From: Verrucomicrobiota bacterium
GTDB lineage: Bacteria; Verrucomicrobiota; Verrucomicrobiia; Limisphaerales; CANJSG01
Direction: 5' to 3'
Length of the DNA stretch: 37,020 nucleotides
NCBI GenBank assembly: GCA_947476875.1
Contig: CANJSG010000013.1
Coordinates: forward strand, 1-37,020
The position numbers and the translations under genes are program-made. This document shows, in pieces, positions 219-37,020 of the stretch. The notes under the pieces are model-generated. The model had not been told where the DNA came from. It searched no databases and saw only the letters and a program-made list of their open reading frames with translations. Every line of letters starts with the position of its first letter. The first letter of the stretch is position 1.

Positions 219-755
219 ATGTCACGTATTGGAAAACTGCCGATCGAGATTCCTGCAAAGGTCAAGGTAGCGATCAAGGGTGCTGAAGTTTCGGTTGAGG
301 GGCCTAGGGGAAAATTGTCCTTTGTTCTGCCGAAACGGGCTTCAGCTAAGATCGAGGGGAACCTGGTGATTATCTCGCGAGATGGTGACACCGCTGAAGC
401 AAAAGCCCTCCATGGTTTGAGCCGCGCCTTGATAAACAATATGGTCAAGGGCGTGAGTGAGGGTTTCGTAAAGAAGCTTGAAATCAACGGAGTCGGTTTC
501 AAAGCGTCGATTGTAGGGAAGATCATCTCATTAAACTTAGGCTACTCTCATCCGATCACCTACACGATACCGGATCAGATCAAGGTCACGATCGAAGAAA
601 ACACCAAACTGACCATTGAAGGTCCTGATCGACAGGTAGTCGGTGTTGTGGCCTCGGAGATTCGGAGTTTCTATCCACCTGAACCTTATAAGGGTAAGGG
701 AGTTAAGTATTCCGACGAGAAGATTATCCGTAAGGAAGGCAAAACAGTCCAATAA
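219..755 (+). CDS. rplF: 50S ribosomal protein L6
   Basis: MSRIGKLPIEIP...EGPRGKLS...GPDRQVVGVVASEIRSFYPPEPYKGKGVKYSDE signature; operon position. Confidence 0.97.
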   Translation: MSRIGKLPIEIPAKVKVAIKGAEVSVEGPRGKLSFVLPKRASAKIEGNLVIISRDGDTAEAKALHGLSRALINNMVKGVSEGFVKKLEINGVGFKASIVGKIISLNLGYSHPITYTIPDQIKVTIEENTKLTIEGPDRQVVGVVASEIRSFYPPEPYKGKGVKYSDEKIIRKEGKTVQ

Positions 756-793
756 CGGAGTTAGGTTACGGCGACAACCGTGACCGCATAAAA

Positions 794-1159
794 ATGAGAA
801 CCGAAAAAAAGCAAAAGCTGGCGCAATTAAGACATTGGAGGATTAGGCACCGAGTTAAGGGGACTCCGGAGAGGCCGCGCATGAGTGTGCATTTTAGCAA
901 CATGCACATATACGTTCAGTTTATCGATGACACGAAGGCGCTGACGTTGGCTTCGGCGTGCACCACCTCCGATATATTTCCTGCTGGGTCCAAGATCCGT
1001 GCAAATTCTGTCACTGCAAAAACAGTGGGGACTGCCGCCGCTGAAAGTGCCAAAGCAGTCGGCATAACCAAGGTTGTTTTTGATCGAGGATCACTTCGGT
1101 TTCACGGTAAGGTAAAGGCCTTGGCGGATTCCGCGAGGGAAGCAGGGCTCCAGTTTTAA
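794..1159 (+). CDS. rplR: 50S ribosomal protein L18
   Basis: RRRIRxRVKGTxERPRxSV-like N-terminus (RHWRIRHRVKGTPERPRMSVHFSNMHIYVQFIDD) and VVFDRGSLRFHGKVKALADSAREAGL. Confidence 0.96.
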   Translation: MRTEKKQKLAQLRHWRIRHRVKGTPERPRMSVHFSNMHIYVQFIDDTKALTLASACTTSDIFPAGSKIRANSVTAKTVGTAAAESAKAVGITKVVFDRGSLRFHGKVKALADSAREAGLQF

Positions 1160-1179
1160 CCATTTTGGAGATAAAATAA

Positions 1180-1794
1180 GTGTCTGAACCACAACGCACA
1201 GACGGAAATGTAAGGGGTCCCGGGGGGAGCTTTGGGGCGCGGCGCGGGCGTCCTAGTCGTCCTAACGACGGATCTGGTCAGGGTGATCAGCGCTCTGGAA
1301 ACGAACTGGTCGAAAAAGTTGTATTCATCAACCGATCGGCGAAAGTAGTTAAGGGCGGTCGACGATTCAGCTTCAGTGCTCTGGTAGTCGCGGGTGACAA
1401 AAAAGGCAGGGTCGGAGTTGGGTTGGGCAAAGGTGGCGAGGTTTCGGACGCGATCCGAAAAGGTGGGGATTCCGCGAAATCCCAGATGGTCTCAATTTCG
1501 ATCAAATTAGCGACCATACCCCACGAGATTAATTTCGAATTCGGTGGAGCCAAAGTTTTGTTGAGGCCCGCGTCGCCTGGAACTGGGGTAATTGCTGGGA
1601 AAACCGTTCGGGCAGTTTTGGAAGCGGTTGGGATAAAGGATATTCTGACGAAATCACTTGGTTCCAATAACCCCTCAAATGTCGTTAAGGCCACTTTGGG
1701 GGCATTAAAGAAGCTTCGATTGGCTGAAGATATCTATCGCAGTCGCGGAATTGAACGTCGCCAATCTTCGGGTGAAACCGTCGCAACCAATTAA
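1180..1794 (+). CDS. rpsE: 30S ribosomal protein S5 (GTG start)
   Basis: [54 protein letters not shown] signature. Confidence 0.96.
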
Positions 1795-1802
1795 GTCTAC
1801 CA

Positions 1803-2264
1803 ATGCGTCTTCATAACCTAAAACCGCGCCCGGGAGCGAAACACCGCACCAAGCGCCTTGGACAGGGTGAATCTAGCGGACATGGAAAAACCTCCGGCCG
1901 CGGTGGTAAGGGACAGTCTGCCAGATCCGGTTCATCGATTCGAATTGGCTTCGAGGGTGGACAAATGCCGTTGATCCGGCGGATGCCAAAACGGGGGTTC
2001 AACAACGCTCGATTCACCACCCGTTACATGCCCGTTAATGTCGAGGATCTGAACATTTTCGAGGATGGGGCGACAGTTGACGTTTTGGCGCTCGAGGCAG
2101 CTGGCCTTGCTGCTGGACCGATAAAACTAATAAAGATCTTGGGTGAAGGTGAACTTAAGCGAAATCTAACCGTTGTTGCCAATGGGTTCAGTGCTACCGC
2201 TAGGGTGAAGATAGAGAGCTTGGGCGGTTCCTGCAAACTGGTGGATAAGAAGCCCACGGCCTAA
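1803..2264 (+). CDS. rplO: 50S ribosomal protein L15
   Basis: MRLHNLKPRPGAKHRTKRLGQGESSGHGKTSGRGGKGQSARSG and GFEGGQMPLIRRMPKRGF. Confidence 0.97.
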   Translation: MRLHNLKPRPGAKHRTKRLGQGESSGHGKTSGRGGKGQSARSGSSIRIGFEGGQMPLIRRMPKRGFNNARFTTRYMPVNVEDLNIFEDGATVDVLALEAAGLAAGPIKLIKILGEGELKRNLTVVANGFSATARVKIESLGGSCKLVDKKPTA

Positions 2265-2267
2265 TAG

Positions 2268-3671
2268 ATGCTTCGCATGTTCGCTAGCATCGCAAACACG
2301 TTCGTCAACTGCTTCAAGATACCTGAACTCAGGTCGCGAATATGGTTTACCCTGACCGTCTTGGGTGTATGCAGACTCGCGGCGCTAGTTCCGGTTCCGG
2401 GACTGGACAACGCAGCGTTGAAGGCCTATTTCGAGGACTCAGCCAAGTCGGGCGGCAATTCTCTGATAGGACTATACTCTCTGTTCACGGGTGGCGGATT
2501 TGAACACTGTGCGCTGGGCGCGTTGGGAATAATGCCCTATATCAGCGCTACCATCATTATTCAGCTGCTTGCAGCCGTGGTTCCCCAACTGAGCAAGATG
2601 GCCCGGGAAGAGGGTGGGCGTGTTAAAATTATCCAATACGGCCGCTATCTTGCTGTATTGCTTGCTCTCGGACAGGGTTTTGCGATGTCTCTTGGATGGG
2701 AGAGTCCGGAGAAAATTTTCCCCAATTGGAGCGTTGGCAGTGGACTCGTCTTGGTTGAAAATCCGTGGATTTATCGTTTCCAGACAGCTTTCTTCTTGGC
2801 GGCTGGGACTGTGCTATTGATGTGGCTGGGTGAGCAGATTACCGATCGTGGTATCGGTAACGGAGTCTCTCTTGTAATTACGGTTGGAATTTTGGCGCGA
2901 CTTCCGAAGGCAATCCAGGGTTTGTGGCAGATTTTTGTTCCGCCTGCTGGCATTGAAAGCAAGTTGAATATGTTCCACGGTCTGGCGCTCATTGTCCTGC
3001 TGGTTGCAGTTGTAGCTGGGGTGGTTGCAGTTGTTCAGGGGCAGAGGAAAATTCCGGTTCAATACGCTCAGCGAGCGGTTGGTCGGAAGGTTGTATCGGG
3101 CGGGAGTTCGTTCATGCCATTAAGGGTCAATTATGCAGGCGTTATGCCCGTGATTTTCGCCCAAGCGATCCTTATGTTTCCAGCGCAGATTCTGCAATTC
3201 ATGGCACAGAAGGTATCAGGAGACTTGTCGAAGTGGCTCAGCCAGTTTTCCAGATACCTTGTTGAGCCTCATCCGATTTATCTTATTTCATTCGGGCTGA
3301 TGATTTTGTTCTTTTCCTATTTTTGGGTCGCTACCCAGTTCAACGAGCTTCAGATCGCCGACGACATGAAAAAATCCGGTGGTTACATTCCTGGAATACG
3401 CCCTGGTTCTGCTACAAGTGAATTCTTGCATTCGACGATGTCGAAGATAACTTTGGCTGGCGCGGTTTTTCTCACGGTCATTGCAATTATTCCAATCTTG
3501 CTTGGAAGGGCTTTCGGGATTGATCCGATTGTGACCCAATTTTTCGGCGGAACCAGTATGTTGATCACGGTTGGTGTTGTATTGGACACAATGCGGCAGA
3601 TGGAATCCTATCTTCTGATGCGTCATTACGACGGCTTTCTTAAAAAAGGTCGGATCAAGGCAAGATTTTAA
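2268..3671 (+). CDS. secY: preprotein translocase subunit SecY
   Basis: Multi-spanning membrane protein; IPVPGLD-like segment, GIMPYISATIIIQLL, RKIPVQYAQR, KSGGYIPGIRPG, SYLLMRHYDGFLKKGRIK. Confidence 0.97.
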   Translation: MLRMFASIANTFVNCFKIPELRSRIWFTLTVLGVCRLAALVPVPGLDNAALKAYFEDSAKSGGNSLIGLYSLFTGGGFEHCALGALGIMPYISATIIIQLLAAVVPQLSKMAREEGGRVKIIQYGRYLAVLLALGQGFAMSLGWESPEKIFPNWSVGSGLVLVENPWIYRFQTAFFLAAGTVLLMWLGEQITDRGIGNGVSLVITVGILARLPKAIQGLWQIFVPPAGIESKLNMFHGLALIVLLVAVVAGVVAVVQGQRKIPVQYAQRAVGRKVVSGGSSFMPLRVNYAGVMPVIFAQAILMFPAQILQFMAQKVSGDLSKWLSQFSRYLVEPHPIYLISFGLMILFFSYFWVATQFNELQIADDMKKSGGYIPGIRPGSATSEFLHSTMSKITLAGAVFLTVIAIIPILLGRAFGIDPIVTQFFGGTSMLITVGVVLDTMRQMESYLLMRHYDGFLKKGRIKARF

Positions 3672-3681
3672 GGGTTTCCCG

Positions 3682-4428
3682 ATGACGGTCCTTAAAACAG
3701 CGAAAGATCTCGAACTAATGAGGCCTGCCTGCAAGGCAGCCGGGCAGGTTCTGAGAGAAATCGGGGAAATGATCAGACCGGGAGTCACAACACTTGAGTT
3801 GGACCGGATAGCTGCAGAGTTGATCAGGGTAGCCGGCGGGAAAAGTGCCTTTTTTGGTTACAGGGGATATCCCTGCCATGTCTGTTTATCTCTGAACGAC
3901 GAAGTGGTTCATGGATTGGCGAGTAGCCGGACATTAAATTTTGGAGACATTCTTTCTGTAGACTGCGGAGTGGCCTTGAACGGATTCATCGGGGACACCG
4001 CAAGAACTTTTGTTGTTGGTGGATGCCAAACCGAGGTAAGCGTCCTCCTTGAGGTGACGGAGCGGGCGCTGTTTGAAGGAATTGCAGAGTGTCGATCTGG
4101 AAATCGCGTAGTTGATGTTTCGCGAGCGATCCAGGAATACGTTGAAGCGAGTGGGTTCAGCGTTGTTCGTGAATTTGTTGGCCATGGGGTTGGGAGATCG
4201 CTCCATGAAGACCCGCAGATTCCAAATTTTGTGGAAGCAGGATCATCTGTCAAACTGAAGGCGGGGATGACTCTGGCTATCGAGCCCATGGTTAATGCTG
4301 GCAGGGCCGAAGTGAAATTTCTTAAAGATGGCTGGACAGTGAAAACTCGGGATGGTTCACTTTCTGCCCATTTTGAACACACGGTCCTCGTCACTGATGA
4401 AGAGCCGGAAGTGTTGACGAAGGTCTGA
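3682..4428 (+). CDS. map: methionine aminopeptidase type I
   Basis: LSLNDEVVHGLA, GDILSVDCGVALNGFIGDTARTF, FVGHGVGRSLHEDPQIPNF, MTLAIEPMVN, SAHFEHTVLVT. Confidence 0.95.
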   Translation: MTVLKTAKDLELMRPACKAAGQVLREIGEMIRPGVTTLELDRIAAELIRVAGGKSAFFGYRGYPCHVCLSLNDEVVHGLASSRTLNFGDILSVDCGVALNGFIGDTARTFVVGGCQTEVSVLLEVTERALFEGIAECRSGNRVVDVSRAIQEYVEASGFSVVREFVGHGVGRSLHEDPQIPNFVEAGSSVKLKAGMTLAIEPMVNAGRAEVKFLKDGWTVKTRDGSLSAHFEHTVLVTDEEPEVLTKV

Positions 4429-4436
4429 ATGATCCT

Positions 4437-4634
4437 ATGTGGATTGTTGCTGAAGTGGGGCGGAGATTGTCCAACCGGACATTGGCGTGTCGGTTGGTTA
4501 ATGGCCACCGGTTGATTGGCGTGTTACCGAAAAAGCTCGCCAGTATCTCTGATGCCATTTCGGTTGGCGAACGGTTGACTATATTGGTAAGTCCTTTCGA
4601 TATGTCGAAAGGCGTGGTTGTCGGTAGGACATAG
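4437..4634 (+). CDS. infA: divergent translation initiation factor IF-1-like protein
   Basis: RLSNRTLACRLVNGHRLIGVLPKKLASISDAISVGERLTILVSPFDMSKGVVVGRT aligns by eye to IF-1 (FRVxLENGHxxxAHISGK...GDxVTVELSPYDLSKGRIVxR); canonical map-infA-rpmJ position; 65 aa. Confidence 0.8.
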   Translation: MWIVAEVGRRLSNRTLACRLVNGHRLIGVLPKKLASISDAISVGERLTILVSPFDMSKGVVVGRT

Positions 4635-4640
4635 AATTTT

Positions 4641-4754
4641 ATGAAGGTTCGTGCGTCAGTTAAAAAGCTTTGTGAGAATTGCAGTATCGTCCGAAGAAAA
4701 GGGATACTGCGGGTTATTTGTTCGAACGCCCGCCACAAGCAGCGGCAAGGTTGA
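4641..4754 (+). CDS. rpmJ: 50S ribosomal protein L36 (37 aa; below the ORF-track cutoff)
   Basis: Direct translation [37 protein letters not shown], with the CxxC...C...H pattern of L36. Confidence 0.95.
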
Positions 4755-4789
4755 GTCGAGCCCAGTAAAGAATTGGCCCAAACAACTAT

Positions 4790-5176
4790 ATGGCACGCAT
4801 TATCGGTGTTGAAATTCCTAGTGACAAACGGATCGATATCGCTCTTCGATATATATACGGAATTGGCCCCAAGAACGCTCTTCGTGTCCTCGAAGTCGCG
4901 CAAATCGAGGGATCTGTTCGCGCGAAAGACCTCACAGAAGAGCAGTTGTCACGGATCGTTAAAGCGATCCAAGATGGCAAATATATCATCGAGGGCGACC
5001 TCAGGCGCGAAATTGGTATGAACCTCAAGCGGTTACAGGCTATCAAGTGCTACCGCGGTGTCCGGCATTTGCGTGGTCTGCCTGTGCGTGGCCAGCGGAC
5101 GTCCACCAATGCCCGCACGCGCAAGGGGCCCCGCAAGACCGTTGGCGTTCAGCGCGCCAAAGCCGCAACTCCCTAA
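4790..5176 (+). CDS. rpsM: 30S ribosomal protein S13
   Basis: [26 protein letters not shown]...[32 protein letters not shown]. Confidence 0.97.
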
Positions 5177-5191
5177 CTTTTAAATTGACTT

Positions 5192-5761
5192 ATGGCCGAG
5201 GAATCTAAGCCCAAAAAGGCTGCTGCTCCCAAAGCAGGAGCGAAATCATTGGTCGGTGAAAAAGCCCCCAAAACCCAAGGTGAGGGAGCTGTCCCGACCG
5301 AACCAAAGGTTCCACCTGCTATTGAGCCGCCTGCTGTTTCAGCCCCCACAGCAGCTGAGTTGCTGGCGGATGATCCGAACGCGAAGAAAATCGTAAAGGC
5401 CAAGGGGTCAAAGAACATATCCGCAGGGATCGCAAACATTCTAGCAACGTTCAACAACACTGTTGTTAGTATTACCGACATGCAGGGTAATGTCCTGGGC
5501 TGGAGTGCTGCCGGACGAGTTGGATTCAAAGGCTCGCGGAAGAGCACGGCTTTTGCTGCACAGCAGGTTGCGCAAGACGCCGCCCGGCAAGCGATGGCGC
5601 ACGGCATGCGTGAGATTGAGATCCATGTTAAAGGGCCAGGATCCGGTCGCGAATCGGCTATCAGGGCGCTTCAAGCGATCGGGTTGGAAATTTCAACTAT
5701 CAAGGATGTCACCCCTGTTCCACACAACGGCTGCCGGCCTCGCAAAAAGCGCCGCGTCTAA
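5192..5761 (+). CDS. rpsK: 30S ribosomal protein S11 with a long N-terminal Lys/Ala/Pro-rich extension
   Basis: Core [49 protein letters not shown]...[18 protein letters not shown]; about 65 extra N-terminal residues. Confidence 0.96.
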
Positions 5762-5784
5762 AGAGCATTTAACAGACTATTCTC

Positions 5785-6393
5785 ATGGCTCGTTACACTG
5801 GTCCTCGCACTCGAATCAGCAGACGCTTAGGCGTTCCAATCTTTGGACCCTCGAAATACCTCGAGCGGCGTCCCTATTTCCCTGGTGTTCACGGGCCGAA
5901 ATCCCGCCGAAAAAACTCGGAATACGCTGTCGGATTGATTGAAAAGCAAAAGCTTCGGTATTACTACGGGCTTCTGGAGAGGCAATTCCGTCGAGTGTAT
6001 CAGGAGGCCACCCGCCGCCGCGGTGTGACCGGTGAGCAGATGCTTCAGATTCTTGAGACTCGGTTAGACAATGTCGTTTATATGCTTGGATTCGCAAACA
6101 CCCGGGCGCACGCTCGGCAGGTTGTTGGTCACGGGCATGTCAAGGTGAACGGTCGGAAGGCTGCCATCGCATCCTACGCCCTGCGGGTTAGCGATGTGAT
6201 TGAAATTAAGGACTCGAAGATTTCTCGGCAGATCGCTGCCAAAGCCGGGGAGTCGACCGTTAGTCGTTCGGTCCCGGATTGGCTGTCGGTCGACAAAGAA
6301 AACTTTAAGGGTGTTGTGATGCGCGTTCCGACTCTGGAAGAGATTCAACCCATCGCAAACGTTCAGGCCGTCGTCGAATTCTATTCCCGTTGA
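5785..6393 (+). CDS. rpsD: 30S ribosomal protein S4
   Basis: MARYTGPRTRISRRLGVPIFG...RLDNVVYMLGFANTRAHARQVVGHGHVKVNGRK. Confidence 0.97.
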   Translation: MARYTGPRTRISRRLGVPIFGPSKYLERRPYFPGVHGPKSRRKNSEYAVGLIEKQKLRYYYGLLERQFRRVYQEATRRRGVTGEQMLQILETRLDNVVYMLGFANTRAHARQVVGHGHVKVNGRKAAIASYALRVSDVIEIKDSKISRQIAAKAGESTVSRSVPDWLSVDKENFKGVVMRVPTLEEIQPIANVQAVVEFYSR

Positions 6394-6491
6394 TCTGTCC
6401 ACCGCCCTCAAAAGGGGCAAAGCAATTACATGGGCCGTTTTCATCCACGGGATGTGCTGAACGGCCAGATTAAAATTGCAAAAGGAAAACC

Positions 6492-7505
6492 ATGCCAGTT
6501 CGTCTTGCTCGTTTCGAAATACCTAAGCGCCTGATCAAAGATGATGCCAGCGCGACCAACAATTACGCCAAATTTATCGCGGAGCCTTTTGAAACAGGCT
6601 ACGGTCATACGGTTGGGAACTCGATTCGGCGGGTTTTGCTCTCGTCGCTCGAAGGCGCCGCCGTCTCTTCGATCAAGATAGACGGAGCAATGCATGAATT
6701 CGCGACCGTTGACGGGGTTAGTGAGGACGTGACTGATATCATTCTGAATCTGAAGAAAGTTCAGTTTAAAATGCAGGGTTCACGCGAGCCGCAAATGCTG
6801 CGGATCTCGGTCAACAAGGAAGGGGCTGTAACGGCGGCCGACATTGAGACCAATCAGAACGTCGAGGTTGTGAATCCGAAACAGCACATTTGCACAATTG
6901 ATAAAAAGAAGAAACTCGACATTGAGCTCGAGGTTAAAATCGGGCGCGGGTTTTGTCCTGGTGATCAGAACAAGAAATCTGACCAGGCGATTGGTGTGAT
7001 CGCCATTGATTCGCTCTTCTCTCCTGTTTCCCGGGTGCGTTACAACGTTGAGTCCGCTCGCGTTGGGCAAAGGACCGATTACGACAAGCTTGTGATTGAG
7101 GTGTGGACAGATGGGCGTATGACCCCAGATGATGCCCTTACCCAAGCTTCGGCAATTCTTCAGCACCACTTGGATGTTTTCGTCGGCTACGATAAGAACG
7201 CCATCGAATTTGAGAAGGAAGAAACGAAGGTTGATGACGAGAAGGCCAAGCTCAAAAAGCTGCTCAATATGTCGGTTAACGAGATTGAGCTGTCTGTTCG
7301 TGCCGCTAACTGTCTCAACAACGCAAATATCACCACGGTTGGCCAGTTGGGAATGAAATCAGAGCAGGAAATGTTGAAGTATCGTAACTTTGGCAAGAAA
7401 TCGCTCAATGAGATCAAGGATAAGCTGGCAGCTTTGGGGTTGATGCTTGGAATGACCTTCGAGCCAGGACTTCTCGAAGCGCCCAAGGAAGAGCCGAAGA
7501 ACTAA
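6492..7505 (+). CDS. rpoA: DNA-directed RNA polymerase subunit alpha
   Basis: FIAEPFETGYGHTVGNSIRRVLLSSLEGAAV and C-terminal domain ELSVRAANCLNNANITTVGQL...NFGKKSLNEIKDKLAALGLMLGM. Confidence 0.97.
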   Translation: MPVRLARFEIPKRLIKDDASATNNYAKFIAEPFETGYGHTVGNSIRRVLLSSLEGAAVSSIKIDGAMHEFATVDGVSEDVTDIILNLKKVQFKMQGSREPQMLRISVNKEGAVTAADIETNQNVEVVNPKQHICTIDKKKKLDIELEVKIGRGFCPGDQNKKSDQAIGVIAIDSLFSPVSRVRYNVESARVGQRTDYDKLVIEVWTDGRMTPDDALTQASAILQHHLDVFVGYDKNAIEFEKEETKVDDEKAKLKKLLNMSVNEIELSVRAANCLNNANITTVGQLGMKSEQEMLKYRNFGKKSLNEIKDKLAALGLMLGMTFEPGLLEAPKEEPKN

Positions 7506-7521
7506 TTCTCAGGAGACTGTT

Positions 7522-8001
7522 ATGCGCCATTTGAAGCGAACGGCCAAGTTGGGCCGCACCGGCAGCCATCGTAATGCGATGCTTGCCAATTTAGTTTGCA
7601 GTTTGATTCTGCATAAACGTGTCACGACTACCTTGGCTAAGGCCAAGGCTGCTCGGATTGTAGCGGAAAAGATGCTGACCCTCGGCCGCAGGGCTTTGGT
7701 GGCCAGAAACGCTGCCGGGACCGTATCGGATTCGACTGAGAAACGGGACTTGGTCGCCAAGAGCGTGCATCTTCGGCGCTTAGCAGTGTCTAATCTTCAT
7801 CAAGAAGCGGCCGTAAAGATTCTCTTCAATGAGATTTCTACCGCCAGCAAGGAACGTCGGGGTGGCTACACCCGCATCATCCGGTTGGGTCAGCGTCAAG
7901 GTGATGTTGCCAAAATGGTGATTCTTGAATGGGTAGATGGAGCCGATCCCGGCCCAGCTGTGGCGCCAATCGAAGAGAAGGTCGACCTCGCAAAAGCCTG
8001 A
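7522..8001 (+). CDS. rplQ: 50S ribosomal protein L17
   Basis: MRHLKRTAKLGRTGSHRNAMLANLVCSLILHKRVTTTLAKAKAAR; RRGGYTRIIRLGQRQGDVAKMVILEWV. Confidence 0.97.
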   Translation: MRHLKRTAKLGRTGSHRNAMLANLVCSLILHKRVTTTLAKAKAARIVAEKMLTLGRRALVARNAAGTVSDSTEKRDLVAKSVHLRRLAVSNLHQEAAVKILFNEISTASKERRGGYTRIIRLGQRQGDVAKMVILEWVDGADPGPAVAPIEEKVDLAKA

Positions 8002-8019
8002 AGGGTTTTCAATTTTCAC

Positions 8020-8050
8020 AAGCCCGCCGAGAGGCGGGCTTTTTCTTTTT
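8020..8050 (+). terminator. rho-independent terminator ending the ribosomal operon
   Basis: AAGCCCGCC-GAGA-GGCGGGCTT perfect stem followed by TTTTCTTTTT, about 20 bp after the rplQ stop. Confidence 0.93.
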
Positions 8051-8123
8051 CGGAAGTCCTGCCTTGGCCATTTGGCAACAGGGAGTGTAGGAACACGGAG
8101 TAACGGTCTCTTCTGAAAAAATT

Positions 8124-9548
8124 ATGGCGACTCATTCTGCGTCTATCGATGCTCGACCTTGGTGGAAACAGCTTACGCCCTACCACCGGTCGGTTTTCCT
8201 CATTGCCTCGCTCGCTTGGATGTTCGACTGCCTTGACCAGCAGCTCTTCATCCTTGCACGGAACAACGCTATCCAAACCGTGCTCGGAGGCGCTTCGGTC
8301 GATCCGGGCAAGGTTAAGGAATTCGGCGGTTACGCCACCGCTATCTTTGTCGCGGGTTGGGCCATGGGCGGTTTGATCTTTGGTTCCGTCGGAGACCGGA
8401 TTGGACGAGCCAAGACCCTGGCGGTCACGGTCATGCTATACTCGGTTTGCACGGGACTTAGTGCCCTGTCTTCCACGTTTACTGAGTTCGCGATCTACCG
8501 GTTCGTCACAGGTCTTGGCGTGGGTGGAGTTTTCGGATTGGCAGTGGCTCTTGTGGCTGACGCGTTGCCCGAGTCCGCGCGTCCCAAGGCGCTTGGGATG
8601 CTCCAGGCTCTGTCTGCCGTGGGCAATGTAGCGGCCGGGTTGGGAGCCTTGGCCGTGGCAGGGCTATCACCGCTCGTTTCGTGGAAATATCTCTTCTTGA
8701 TCGGTGCTGCCCCGGCGTTTCTCTGCATCTTCATCATGGTGCGTCTAAAAGAGCCTGAGAAATGGGTCCAGGCGAGGGTTTCGAGCCTCGGGGCTGGGGG
8801 CAGAAAGATGGGTTCCTACGCCGACCTGTTCGGAGTTCCCCGATGGAGAAAACCGGCCGTGGGTGGAATGATTCTTTGCGTCGCGGGTGTCGTTGGACTT
8901 TGGGGCGTCGGCTTCTTCAGCCCCGAACTCATCGGGCCGGCGCTCGACAGGGCTCTTCGGGCCGAGGGTTTGGCCGACGCGGCACTTGGCCAAGCCAAGG
9001 GGCAATGGACGGCGTATAACCTCATCGTCCAGAACATCGGCGCCTTCGCCGGCATGATCGCCTTCAGCAAGGTCGCCCATCGCATTGGCCGGAAGAAGAC
9101 GTTTGCCATCGGGTTCGTGATGGCTTTTCTGGCCACTGTCTTTTTCTTCACCAGCTTCAAGAGCAAATCCGATCTCTGGATGAGCGCCGTCATGGGATTC
9201 TTCCAGCTCGGGCTTTTCGCCGGATTTGCGATCTACCTGCCCGAACTTTTTCCGACCCGCCTTCGCAGCACCGGAGTGAGCTTCTGCTACAACGTTGGCC
9301 GTTTCATCGCCGCCACCGGACCGTTCACCCTCGGGGTCCTCCAAAAATGGCTTGGCGACCGCGCGGTCGCGTTGCTGCCCGCGACGGCCGATGCCGTAGC
9401 CAAAGCTGAAGCCAAGCTGGGAGCGTTTCGCGAAGCCGCGTGCTGGTTGAGCAGTGTCTACCTGCTCGGCCTCGTGATCCTGCCGTTTCTTCCCGAGACC
9501 AAGGGCCTCCCGATGCCGGAGGATGAACCGGTGGCGAAGACGACCTGA
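8124..9548 (+). CDS. MFS transporter
   Basis: About 12 predicted TM segments; GSVGDRIGRAKTL motif, GLGVGGVFGLAVALVADALPESARPKALG, second-half motif KVAHRIGRKKTFAIG. Confidence 0.9.
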   Translation: MATHSASIDARPWWKQLTPYHRSVFLIASLAWMFDCLDQQLFILARNNAIQTVLGGASVDPGKVKEFGGYATAIFVAGWAMGGLIFGSVGDRIGRAKTLAVTVMLYSVCTGLSALSSTFTEFAIYRFVTGLGVGGVFGLAVALVADALPESARPKALGMLQALSAVGNVAAGLGALAVAGLSPLVSWKYLFLIGAAPAFLCIFIMVRLKEPEKWVQARVSSLGAGGRKMGSYADLFGVPRWRKPAVGGMILCVAGVVGLWGVGFFSPELIGPALDRALRAEGLADAALGQAKGQWTAYNLIVQNIGAFAGMIAFSKVAHRIGRKKTFAIGFVMAFLATVFFFTSFKSKSDLWMSAVMGFFQLGLFAGFAIYLPELFPTRLRSTGVSFCYNVGRFIAATGPFTLGVLQKWLGDRAVALLPATADAVAKAEAKLGAFREAACWLSSVYLLGLVILPFLPETKGLPMPEDEPVAKTT

Positions 9549-16220: not shown

Positions 16221-16820
16221 TCAGCGGCTGCCGGTGGACTGAAGGTGGGCGACGGTCGACGGAGCGACACCAAACGCGGGTGGTAGCGGGACTTCGAGGA
16301 TGCGGGCCATGACCGAGATGAGCGCGTAGTGGTGGATCGCATGGCCGATCACGTAGACGAGTTCGCGGCCGAGCGAAGACTTGGACAAAGGAGAGTCGCC
16401 AGGTTCGTAGCTGACTTCGCAGCGTGCGATCATAGGGGTCCACAAGGCGGAAGGCTCCAAGCATTCGATGCCGGCCCGGATACGGCGGGTGAGCGCGAGG
16501 GCGAAATCGACCTGCGTTTCCAATCGGGAATCCCGCTGGCGGTGATCGTAGTCGACGAGGGCGCCGTCGAGGCCGGCCAGAAGGCTGGTGAAATGATCCA
16601 GACAGTGCCGGTAGTGGCCGCCGATGGAGGCGTTGAAGGCGACGGGAACCTTCTGGACGAAGGCTCCTGGCGGAAGCGAGGCCAGCAGAAGTTCACCTTG
16701 GCGCAGGATTTCCGCCGCAGCCGCGAGAATCCGCTCGGAGTCGGACTGGGAAGAGCCGTCAATGGCGGTTACGGCGGCAACTGAGCGAACGGCAGTGGTC
16801 AGGACCTGGGATTGATTCAT
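16221..16820 (-). CDS. DinB-like superfamily protein
   Basis: SIGGHYRHCLDHFTSLL...VIGHAIHHYALISVMARILEVPLPPAFGVAPSTVAHL; His positions typical of DinB-like bundles. Confidence 0.7.
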   Translation of the reverse strand: MNQSQVLTTAVRSVAAVTAIDGSSQSDSERILAAAAEILRQGELLLASLPPGAFVQKVPVAFNASIGGHYRHCLDHFTSLLAGLDGALVDYDHRQRDSRLETQVDFALALTRRIRAGIECLEPSALWTPMIARCEVSYEPGDSPLSKSSLGRELVYVIGHAIHHYALISVMARILEVPLPPAFGVAPSTVAHLQSTGSR

Positions 16821-32700: not shown

Positions 32701-32804
32701 GTGGGGGCCGGTCAGGACGTCGATCCGGGCGAAAAGCCTGGTCTGCTCGGGGTAGGCTGGAAGACCGCATGGTCGGGAGGTAACAGGCCAAACCTCGGGT
32801 GGTC

Positions 32805-33165
32805 CTACGCGGGAGTCCTCCCCGCCAACACCCCCGAGAGGGCCGGGGCCAGGGCGCTGTTGGAACCTTTGCTGCCGTGGTTCCGTTCCCTGCACAGGAT
32901 GTGGGTGGACGGGGGGGATTCTCCGGGCCCGACTCCGCGGCGTGGGTGCGCAGGCAGAGTCCGAACCTGGAGGCCGGGGTCGTCAAACGCTCCAACGATC
33001 CGAAGGACTTCAAGGTCCAGCCCCGCCGCTGGATGGCCGAGGGGACCTCCGGCTGGTTTAGGCTCAAACGGCGGCTGGTCCGCGACCGCGAGAAGACCCA
33101 ATCCAGCGCCACCACCAGGATCTACATCGCCATGATAGTCCTCGTGCTCAACAGACTGGTCTTTC
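32805..33165 (+). pseudogene. degraded IS5-family transposase C-terminal fragment, frameshifted at a G7 run
   Basis: Frame 1: LPANTPERAGARALLEPLLPWFRSLHRMWVDGG; frame 2: FSGPDSAAWVRRQSPNLEAGVVKRSNDPKDFKVQPRRWMAEGTSGWFRLKRRLVRDREKTQSSATTRIYIAMIVLVLNRL, together resembling IS5 DDE transposase C-termini. Confidence 0.8.
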
Positions 33166-33252
33166 AACGTCTGTGCCATTCCTCGGCCCAGACTCTCTTT
33201 CCTCCCGGTTCAGTTTGGCGAGGTCAGATCACTGTAAGTCCTTGATTGAAAA

Positions 33253-33297
33253 TGGAGCCAGTTGTCGGGATTGAACCGACGACCCACGCTTTACGAA
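33253..33297 (-). tRNA. partial tRNA-Thr(CGT): 3' part only, from anticodon loop to CCA; putative attachment-site remnant
   Basis: Minus strand TTCGTAA-AGCGT-GGGTC-GTCGG-TTCAATC-CCGAC-AACTGGC-T-CCA fits anticodon loop, 3' anticodon stem, variable loop, T arm, 3' acceptor, discriminator and CCA; upstream sequence cannot form the 5' half. Confidence 0.8.
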
Positions 33298-33469
33298 CTT
33301 GTTTTACGCGAAAACCGCACCTCGTCCTTAATTTTTATCAATGTAACTGTTTGATGTTGAGGACTCCAGTGTCCACGGGCCAGCAGGCGATTTTTTTCTA
33401 CCTCTCAATAAGTGCCTGCAAACAAATAAAAATATAAGCGTTCTTGGCAGAATTTGGCAGAACACGTGA

Positions 33470-34129
33470 CTAGCTCGCCAATGTCGTCAGATTCTTGACC
33501 GCTTGAGCACTCCACTTCTCGGAACCGTAGGCCGTCGCAATGCCGCGAGCTGATAGCGCCTTGGCAATTCCCGACAGCGAAGAGACGCCAGCGGCCTTGA
33601 TCTGATCAACGATTGGCAACACTCGCGTTCGGAACAACGCAGCCTGTGCCCGTTTGGCTTCAGATGAACGCAGTCGTGCGTCCGATAAATTGGGATTTCC
33701 AAGACGCTGGCCGCGAGACTTTGCAGCTCTTAATGCCGCTTTGGTGCGGGAGGAAATCTGTTCCCGTTCAAACTGCGCAAACGCAACGAGCAGGTGGATC
33801 ATCAGCGGCGTTGCGTGGGGGTTATCAGCAGCAACGAAGTCTGTGCCGGATTTCTGGAGCTGACAGACGAAAAACAAGTCTCGGGTCAACCGATCCAGCT
33901 TCGCGACGAGCAGCGTGTGATTCCCCTTGCGGCAAAGCTCAAGGGCCTCTGCCAAAACGGGACGATCTCCATTCTTACCTGACTCGACCTCCACCATTTC
34001 ACGGACTACCACCGATTCACCCTGAGTCTTCAGGAACGAGGAAACGGCAGTTCGTTGCGCTTCGATTCCAAGCCCTTCAATTCCCTGAAGGCTCGTCGAG
34101 ACGCGTAGATAGGTGACAAACGATTTCAC
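33470..34129 (-). CDS. serine recombinase, small resolvase/invertase family
   Basis: FVTYLRVSTSLQGIEGLGIEAQR, LLVAKLDRLTRDL, LLVAFAQFEREQISSRTKAALRAAKSRGQRLGNP, C-terminal helix-turn-helix-like GIAKALSARGIATAYGSEKWSAQAVKNL. Confidence 0.93.
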   Translation of the reverse strand: MKSFVTYLRVSTSLQGIEGLGIEAQRTAVSSFLKTQGESVVVREMVEVESGKNGDRPVLAEALELCRKGNHTLLVAKLDRLTRDLFFVCQLQKSGTDFVAADNPHATPLMIHLLVAFAQFEREQISSRTKAALRAAKSRGQRLGNPNLSDARLRSSEAKRAQAALFRTRVLPIVDQIKAAGVSSLSGIAKALSARGIATAYGSEKWSAQAVKNLTTLAS

Positions 34130-34156
34130 GCCGCCAGCATTCGGTATCGTTAACTT

Positions 34157-34258
34157 TTAGGCGAGAACAATTTTTCAAATTCCTAAACGAGCGTTTGTGA
34201 ACTTGAAATCACCCTGCCCGTTTGAAGCCAAATAAACATATGCAGGGAAATCGCCTAA
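34157..34258. promoter_or_regulatory. AT-rich intergenic region with nested inverted repeats, between divergent recombinase and HUH-like genes
   Basis: TTAGGCGA at 34157-34164 and its complement TCGCCTAA at 34251-34258; AAACG-AG-CGTTT; CCCTGC at 34212 with GCAGGG at 34242. Confidence 0.5.
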
Positions 34259-34451
34259 GCACGAATGGAACCAAAGGAACTCTATTCTCCTCTCTATAAG
34301 CTACTTCCAGCGTTTTCTGCCCGACAAATCAGAATCACAGACGCTTTCACTGGCCGACTTCTACTTATTCTTTGGTGCCACTCGGGTTATCCGAGCGATA
34401 AGCGGCACGAAGGTCCGGCTGGTTCTGGATACTTCTTTGGAGAAATTGACC

Positions 34452-34979
34452 ATGATATTAGAAAAATCAAAACACCTAGATGAACTTGAATATGTCTTAT
34501 TACCATCCATTTCAGAGATTCAATGGCTCTTTCATGTATCGTTAACCTACCACTACTCACCAAAGGATGAATTCCTAGTGGAGAAGGATGTTTTGGAATA
34601 TCTGACCCAAGTCGGGGACAAGGTTCACCGGAAGAAAAAAGAAATGCATTGGTTCTTCCGGGTGGAGGAACACGAATCAAAAAGACTTCATGTCCATCTC
34701 CTCATGGGTGCCAGATTCCTGCTTGAAAATGACATTATCCGATGGAGGACGGTAGGAGGGAAGCAAGTCGAGTTGGGCAGATTTCTGGCGTCATCTTGGA
34801 AGAAGGGGATGGCAACGGCAGTCGAGTTCATTCCCTACCATTTGGAGTATGTCACCAAGCGTTCCGGATTGATCCAACACTGCGGATGGTCAAAAGCCGT
34901 CAGGCAATCTGTCCGACGGGGCGAAGAATATAAGAAAGCTCAAGTAGTTAAAATATCTCGAAATGGGACAGAACTATGA
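34452..34979 (+). CDS. small HUH-endonuclease/Rep-like protein
   Basis: Motif I-like WLFHVSLTY, HUH motif RLHVHLLM, YxxK motif YHLEYVTK in correct order; ATG 34452 preceded by GGAG at about 9 nt; frame is open upstream to 34236. Confidence 0.65.
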   Translation: MILEKSKHLDELEYVLLPSISEIQWLFHVSLTYHYSPKDEFLVEKDVLEYLTQVGDKVHRKKKEMHWFFRVEEHESKRLHVHLLMGARFLLENDIIRWRTVGGKQVELGRFLASSWKKGMATAVEFIPYHLEYVTKRSGLIQHCGWSKAVRQSVRRGEEYKKAQVVKISRNGTEL

Positions 34980-34993
34980 TAAGATGGTCAACA

Positions 34994-35013
34994 GTTAGGC
35001 AATTACGCCTAAC
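34994..35013. repeat. perfect inverted repeat GTTAGGC-AATTAC-GCCTAAC
   Basis: 7-bp arms, 6-nt spacer, 15 nt after the HUH-like gene stop. Confidence 0.8.
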
Positions 35014-35030
35014 ATTAATTACTAACCTAT

Positions 35031-35303
35031 ATGTATCGAAAAAAAAGTACACCAACAAATCAACTCTCTACTGAAGAGCTAAATCTAATCCGTAAAAAAA
35101 GAATACAATATGAGCTGAATGAGGGTCTCGCTAACCTGAAGGAAAAACATCGCGCGGCAATCGAGGACTGGCACGGCCGCAGCTCGTTGCGTAAAGACGT
35201 CGAGGACCAAAGTGAAATCGACGATGGTTACGCCGAGGAATGCGCCGAACTCCGGAAAACGGCGAAACGGATCGAAAACAGGGAAGACGAGGTGGACGGA
35301 TGA
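35031..35303 (+). CDS. small charged orphan protein (90 aa)
   Basis: ORF MYRKKSTPTNQLSTEELNLIRKKRIQYELNEGLANLKEKHR...; stop overlaps the next ATG. Confidence 0.55.
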   Translation: MYRKKSTPTNQLSTEELNLIRKKRIQYELNEGLANLKEKHRAAIEDWHGRSSLRKDVEDQSEIDDGYAEECAELRKTAKRIENREDEVDG

Positions 35304-35554
35304 AATTGAATTCACCGTTGTCACCCGAGGAACTGTCGAAGCTCTGCAAGGCCCTGGAATACTCGGCCGAACGTCTAGCCCGATTCTTTGAGCAAGGGGT
35401 GTTGCTTGCAGAATCGCTCGAAGACGAGGAACTCGCGAGTTCGCGACGAAAGATCGCTGACTACCAAGGGAAAATTAGGCGCGAGCGCGAGCGTATTGGC
35501 CGCATACAAAACATCATTCGTCGAAAGAGGGAGAACGAGCGCAACCGACGCTAA
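35300..35554 (+). CDS. small charged/coiled-coil orphan protein (84 aa)
   Basis: ATGA overlap with the upstream ORF; MKLNSPLSPEELSKLCKALEYSAERLARFFEQGVLL... Confidence 0.55.
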   Translation: MKLNSPLSPEELSKLCKALEYSAERLARFFEQGVLLAESLEDEELASSRRKIADYQGKIRRERERIGRIQNIIRRKRENERNRR

Positions 35555-35582
35555 ACTTCTGAATATGAGGCGATAAACGCAA

Positions 35583-35636
35583 GGCGAAGGGCATGAGAGG
35601 TATTCCGCACACACGGAACCTCTCATGCCCTTCGCC
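35583..35636. repeat. long near-perfect hairpin
   Basis: GGCGAAGGGCATGAGAGG (35583-35600) pairs perfectly with CCTCTCATGCCCTTCGCC (35619-35636); inner TTCCG/CGGAA with a 2-nt bulge and loop CACACA. Confidence 0.92.
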
Positions 35637-35640
35637 GTAA

Positions 35641-35654
35641 CATATGCGCATATG
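35641..35654. repeat. 14-bp perfect palindrome CATATGCGCATATG
   Basis: Direct reading, 4 nt after the hairpin. Confidence 0.9.
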
Positions 35655-35753
35655 CCCAAACGTCGGCTTCCCACCAAGCCGGTCTGCGAATATGACATTT
35701 TGGTGGTTGGAACTGAAAAGAACGGCCAACCAATTAAGTGACTGAGAATCCGG

Positions 35754-36449
35754 TCACTTCTCGTTCGCTTTGAGGTATTCGTTTGAGAACTTCACCACTT
35801 GGCCAGCTACAGAATCCTTGAGGAATTGTTTACCACCTGCTTTGGTGATCTTACCAAACGATCCATGATCCCAAGTATGGGCATATGACGTCACAATTTC
35901 TGCCTTTCTCCAATAAGTAACCACTTCCGATACGAACGTGGATATAGTGAAGGTCGCAAAGTTTTTGTCTTTGTCCCAGAGCGCGTCTATTTCGATGACC
36001 AGACGGTGGGCCGCTTTAGGGTCAATACGTATTGAGCTTCTGCGGAGCTCAAGTTCGACGTTATCCCTGATATCCGCTTCAGTCAGCACGCCCTCCAAGT
36101 CCGAGAGATAGATTTCCAATGCGACACGTTCCACGCCAGCAAGCGAGGCGTAACTGGTAACGAATTTGGCTGCACGGACTTTGTCTGCGAACAGTTTTGC
36201 CGTAACGTAGTCTTCAGGAATTGCTGCCGGAACTTCTTTGACCACCTCGACCGGCACTCTGACCAAGTTGGTCTTCCAGACCTCGACCGGCTTGTCCACC
36301 AAGACAGTGACCGTGTTGGTTTTGGTGACTTCGACAATCTTGTCGACGTATCGAGGCTCAACCTTCCCTGAAGATTTTCCCGCAAAGTAGGCGGTCACAG
36401 CTACCGCGATCCAAACAACGGTCGTCGTAATCAGCACGTTGGTTTTCAT
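35754..36449 (-). CDS. membrane-anchored orphan protein with extended V/K/T/P-rich stalk
   Basis: MKTNVLITTTVVWIAVAVTAYFAGKSSG (TM anchor), then VDKIVEVTKTNTVTVLVDKPVEVWKTNLVRVPVEVVKEVP, then a globular C-terminal region. Confidence 0.6.
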   Translation of the reverse strand: MKTNVLITTTVVWIAVAVTAYFAGKSSGKVEPRYVDKIVEVTKTNTVTVLVDKPVEVWKTNLVRVPVEVVKEVPAAIPEDYVTAKLFADKVRAAKFVTSYASLAGVERVALEIYLSDLEGVLTEADIRDNVELELRRSSIRIDPKAAHRLVIEIDALWDKDKNFATFTISTFVSEVVTYWRKAEIVTSYAHTWDHGSFGKITKAGGKQFLKDSVAGQVVKFSNEYLKANEK

Positions 36450-36703
36450 ATTGAGATCATCGCTCGCGGCTTCCCTCGGAAATTCTTAGACCCGTAATGC
36501 ATTCATTTCAAGAACGCATCGGCCGATAGAACCGCTCCAACTCCGGCCCAGGGTTCACGACTGGATTTCAAAATAGACTTTCAAAAAATACACAACAAGT
36601 TGTGCAGCAACAACTTAACGATTAGCGTGGCACGGTCGATGCTTGAATATGGGGCAGTGAAGGGGAAACGGAAACATCCCCATACATCAACAAAGGACCG
36701 CCA

Positions 36704-36955
36704 ATGCATACGACTCCGCCGTTTGTTGGAAGACAGTTCCTTGATCTACTCGTGAACCTGCTTCCTGACCTGCTAGCTGGCCGAATCCCTAGCATAATGT
36801 TCAAAATAGATGACGCAGGGTTGAAGATTGAAGGCGACGCAAGTTTCGTCGCCTTCGTCTTCACAGTAGGCGTTCTGTTGTGGTTGTGGAGAAGGTCAAC
36901 CCTAGCAGCCCGTCAAAGAACGGGTGTTTTGGAGCGGCGTGACGGAGGCGTATGA
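36704..36955 (+). CDS. small single-TM orphan protein (83 aa)
   Basis: AGGA upstream of the ATG; TM segment ASFVAFVFTVGVLLWLW followed by basic residues; stop overlaps the next ATG at 36952. Confidence 0.5.
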   Translation: MHTTPPFVGRQFLDLLVNLLPDLLAGRIPSIMFKIDDAGLKIEGDASFVAFVFTVGVLLWLWRRSTLAARQRTGVLERRDGGV

Positions 36956-37020
36956 TGGCTTGGCCTGGGATGGTCCGGAGAAAGTTGTGGGAGAGCGGCG
37001 GACGAGACGGGCGACCAGGG
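36952..37020 (+). CDS. start of a further ORF, cut by the window end
   Basis: ATGA overlap with the 83-aa ORF; open to the window end (MMAWPGMVRRKLWESGGRDGRPG...). Confidence 0.35.
   Translation, partial: MMAWPGMVRRKLWESGGRDGRPG

Follow-up and report, generated by a model that had tools for sequence, protein, structure and literature searches.

How did the 3′ half of a threonine tRNA gene come to stand in a bacterial chromosome with no 5′ half in front of it? The window, i.e., the whole stretch of 37,020 nucleotides that was analysed, is one entire contig (C13) of a draft genome of 4.17 Mb in 317 contigs (85.5% complete). On its minus strand, positions 33297-33253 read TTCGTAAAGCGTGGGTCGTCGGTTCAATCCCGACAACTGGCTCCA, which equals bases 31-75 of a 75-nt tRNA-Thr(CGT). 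The features of this locus and of related loci are listed in Table 1.

The displaced tRNA half and its intact counterpart

The anticodon occupies bases 33-35 of the tRNA, and the fragment begins at base 1 of the 7-nt anticodon loop. A sequence-only reading had described a minus-strand 3′ half running from the anticodon loop to CCA, and had stated that the upstream bases, AAACAAG, leave the 3′ anticodon stem unpaired. Both points hold: the identity with the tRNA is exact, and AAACAAG differs from the true 5′ stem, CAACGCT. ARAGORN and Rfam did not detect a tRNA at the scar, and the scar strand gave a folding z of −1.1 versus −3.5 for the intact gene described below. In shuffled versions of the window, 0 matches were expected for the 46-nt scar pattern. 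A 44-nt pattern had two exact copies in the 4.17-Mb genome, while the reversed control had none.

In an exact search of the assembled genome, the only other copy was located inside an intact tRNA-Thr(CGT) on a separate contig (G000:C57:16511-16585), followed by an integrase gene and low-G+C DNA. An intact gene of this kind had been predicted for the far end of an inserted element, with a direct repeat inside a complete tRNA-Thr as the thing to look for; the repeat is there, and at 64 bp it is longer than the 45 nt first noticed. The two copies are 100% identical, the shared stretch starts at the anticodon loop and continues for 19 bp past CCA, and both C13 flanks of the repeat differ from C57. 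G+C on C57 is 64% up to the tRNA and 52% behind it, and on C13 the host part has 63% and the element DNA next to the scar 50%, the composition step coinciding with the tRNA break. A terminator hairpin (−18.6 kcal/mol, z −4.8) lies directly behind the intact tRNA on C57. The 64-bp repeat, the intact tRNA and the adjacent integrase thus support the proposal that the fragment is an attachment-site scar, the 3′ half left over from a threonine tRNA gene and displaced when a mobile element inserted there.

The missing 5′ half could also be read as a sign of a split tRNA, or of one with an intron, with the 5′ half encoded close by, and nothing more than this absence speaks for that view. No 5′ half, which the sequence-only reading had named as a sign against insertion, was found in the window with as many as 3 mismatches allowed, and the same gene is intact elsewhere in the genome; the split or intron-containing tRNA was therefore rejected and has next to no chance of being correct. 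In a genome as fragmented as this draft, the contig might instead be a chimera assembled through the shared tRNA sequence. However, a false join at the 64-bp repeat would place C57-side sequence alongside it, whereas both C13 flanks are different; furthermore, the composition step falls at the break, and independent genomes show the same architecture, which makes such an artefact very improbable.

Table 1. Coordinates of features on the window, on C57 and at related loci
Feature	Location	Strand	Basis or description
Displaced tRNA-Thr(CGT) 3′ half, from anticodon loop through CCA	window 33253..33297	-	matches bases 31-75 of the intact C57 gene exactly
Complete 64-bp direct repeat (att core), 3′ half of the tRNA and 19 bp past CCA, including ATCAAGGACTTAC	window 33234..33297	-	identical to L003 (C57) 16541-16604
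ATCAAGGACTTAC box sites	window 33234-33252; L003 16586-16604; L087, L088, L091, L121, L122, L127
Distal end of integrated element, incomplete, running off the contig in multicopy sequence	window 33298..37020		G+C, recombinase and Rep genes, multicopy contig end
Small serine recombinase, resolvase/invertase family, 219 aa	window 33470..34129	-	PF00239, E 7e-27
Serine recombinase relatives (~219 aa)	L111 2311-2967; L112 13780-14436; L123 7625-8281; L138 16240-16902
HUH-type replication-initiator-like protein (Rep ORF2/G2P), 180 aa	window 34437..34979	+	PF23343, E 4e-7, above its cut-off
Hypothetical protein, 231 aa, N-terminal hydrophobic segment	window 35754..36449	-	no family match
Transposase fragment and dispersed repeat, host side of scar	window 32701..33245	+	PF13586, E 5e-8
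Host chromosome: end of ribosomal-protein operon (L6, S5, SecY, S11, S4, RpoA, L17) and transporter	window 219..9548	+	Pfam
G247:C59 element	L123 6268-12592		tRNA-Thr(CGT), 3′ half from base 30, 6.3 kb, one contig
G154 element			tRNA-Thr, 3′ half from base 27, 6.9 kb, then second integrase, one contig
G127 element			tRNA-Arg, 3′ half from base 31, 4.4 kb, one contig
G117:C16 element	L112 6928-15861		tRNA-Thr(CGT), 5′ half to base 39, 8.9 kb, one contig
G196 element			tRNA-Ser, 5′ half to base 41, one contig

The two ends of the proposed element

The gene beside the intact tRNA on C57 encodes a tyrosine integrase (P0001) that matched phrog_1 with an E value of 2e-26, while its Pfam integrase matches were weak and below the cut-off. 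Its alignment displays an invariant R, R-H, Y pattern (R265, R344, H345 and Y376), as would be expected of the catalytic residues. Adjoining it is a gene of the DndB/DGQHR family (P0002, L003 17983-19431; Pfam E 6e-25, phrog_36010 E 5e-116), which shows 42% identity over its length with genes from Pseudomonas phages of 95-107 kb. The short element stretch on C57 showed no further Dnd gene. Searches of viral contigs with the integrase and the DndB-family protein gave no relatives, and neither did one search of genome contigs; the integrase alignment was too weakly conserved to serve as a query.

On C13, the element side of the scar encodes the small serine recombinase, whose relatives in four related tRNA-targeting elements are 43-50% identical, and the replication-initiator-like protein, whose translation carries an HVHLL motif. 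In several of these elements, a small serine recombinase is found together with the tyrosine integrase. Structural or packaging phage genes were absent among the genes examined in the 3.7 and 3.0 kb that are visible, which are perhaps a small part of the element. The host part of C13 includes the ribosomal-protein operon at 0.2-8 kb, indicating that the contig is chromosomal, and a transporter at 31.4-32.6 kb. On this side of the scar, no integrase was found. The copies of the dispersed repeat beside the scar end near 33233; the idea that this repeat is a clean insertion-sequence end with a target duplication was unsupported, as the repeat is degenerate and dispersed.

C57 and C13 are separate, unjoined contigs. 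Each of them stops in multicopy sequence with about ten copies, and the assembly breaks there because of these sequences, whose other copies are mostly found at contig ends too. They are probably insertion sequences. Window positions 36901-37020 and L003 19506-19642 belong to two different multicopy sequences with the same CCTAGCAGCCCGTCAAA start. The orientation of both ends is that of a single element between the intact tRNA and the displaced 3′ half, and C57, when reversed, fits beyond the right edge of C13, in line with the minus-strand orientation that had been predicted for the intact gene. We infer from this that the two contigs are physically linked. An empty site was not found in the relatives examined (same order, other families), in which the flanking genes were not syntenic.

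In the proposed event, an element with a tyrosine integrase, presumably P0001, would have entered a chromosomal tRNA-Thr(CGT) by site-specific recombination within the 7-nt anticodon loop. The attP of the element would bring its own tRNA 3′ half and 19 bp, so that an intact tRNA gene would be formed at the integrase end on C57, with an element-side terminator behind the restored tRNA. The original 3′ half would be pushed to the far end and become the scar at 33253-33297. This explanation as a whole, an integrase-bearing element in tRNA-Thr(CGT) with its ends on C57 and C13, has a probability of roughly 0.94. It rests on the intact tRNA and the integrase beside it, on the 64-bp repeat, on the change in composition at both ends, on the matching orientation, and on the same layout in complete relatives.

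Crossover and polarity in related elements

Relatives of the integrase in the same order adjoin tRNA genes for Thr, Arg, Ser, Pro, Lys and SeC. As shown in Table 1, the elements of G247, G154 and G127 each combine an intact tRNA and an integrase with a 3′ half that starts between bases 27 and 31, while the halves of the 5′ type end at base 39-41. The stretch shared by the two kinds of half is confined to the surroundings of the anticodon loop, and this puts the crossover at the loop. The G247 element resembles the C57/C13 element in its tRNA-Thr(CGT) target, its displaced 3′ half, its integrase (33%) and its serine recombinase (48%); however, it has other cargo, and its serine recombinase is beside the integrase and not at the far end. 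The G117 element is also in tRNA-Thr(CGT) and has a similar integrase (35-40%) and serine recombinase (50%), but here the 5′ half and not the 3′ half was displaced. Integrases of the same clade displacing the 5′ half of tRNA-Thr, tRNA-Ser and probably other tRNAs were observed at L112 6928-15861, L132 5226-10106, L111 2924-4393, L131, L133 and L143. Two short intervals, of 1.7 kb (L115 5531-7210) and 3.8 kb (L116 5047-8859), run from a 5′ tRNA-Thr half to an intact tRNA-Thr. An integrase of this clade was not detected in either of them, and they are possibly minimal or decayed elements.

The tree of 22 integrases, in which six polarities were mapped at both ends and most were taken from layout alone, requires polarity to have changed at least twice on branches with good support. 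In the tree, the C57 integrase groups most closely with integrases of the 5′ type, and the support for this grouping is moderate (92/87). The ATCAAGGACTTAC box was present 5-8 nt after CCA in 15 of 71 tRNA-Thr 3′ ends (at most 3 mismatches), compared with 0.3% in shuffles. The 13-mer goes with a downstream integrase (9/15 versus 11/56, Fisher p = 0.004, a value that is indicative, since the loci were partly picked for an integrase). The continuation of the box, CTTACGAAAG, looks like the anticodon loop CTTTCGTAAAG in inverted form. We tentatively suggest, at somewhat less than even odds, that anticodon loops are where the clade recombines, that its polarity has switched at least twice, that the near-symmetric stem-loop lets attP work either way, and that the ATCAAGGACTTAC box is part of the recognised site in some lineages.

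The box also bears on whether the C57 element and the C13 end could stem from two different insertions into one tRNA gene, other elements or scars lying in between, as in a tandem array or after an earlier element. Although linked to elements, the box also stands behind the scar, as expected if the scar once adjoined another element, and an earlier element may have stood there. Tandem arrays occur at this site in relatives, with a second integrase directly behind the scar in G154 and another after the scar in G247; furthermore, the single-element reading takes the linkage of two separate contigs from inference. However, the assembled genome has only two copies of the core, 100% identical to each other, and the host side of the scar is without an integrase, so that two insertions are unlikely, though far less so than a chimeric contig. 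Second integrases directly behind the scar of a first element were observed at L114 11906-19924 and L123 6268-13896.

Relation to known tRNA-gene islands

The proposed single element between C57 and C13 would be an ordinary new example of the well-known tRNA-gene island signature. According to Islander (PMC4383910), the ends of an island are marked by an intact tRNA gene and a displaced fragment, with an integrase gene inside. Of its 3919 islands, 3760 have a 3′ fragment and 159 a 5′ fragment, and the anticodon-loop subsite is used in 2083 of the 3919. The C57/C13 element likewise has an intact tRNA and a displaced 3′ fragment, an inner tyrosine integrase and the anticodon-loop subsite. The fragment is identical to part of the intact tRNA gene in the same genome (100%, 64 bp), it is terminal and correctly oriented, the element is downstream of the intact tRNA and upstream of the fragment, and the tyrosine integrase gene (P0001) is within the island. 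By the Islander definition, both ends also lie on one replicon at 2-200 kb; here the two ends are on two contigs, which are broken by multicopy sequence. The element differs from the catalogued islands by an additional small serine recombinase and a Rep-like gene.

The finding gives the exact position of one end of a mobile element in the draft genome of a bacterium, where a tRNA fragment alone predicted an intact gene and an integrase on another contig. Both polarities are found at one tRNA anticodon loop within one integrase clade, and this is a natural series for studying how direction is chosen.
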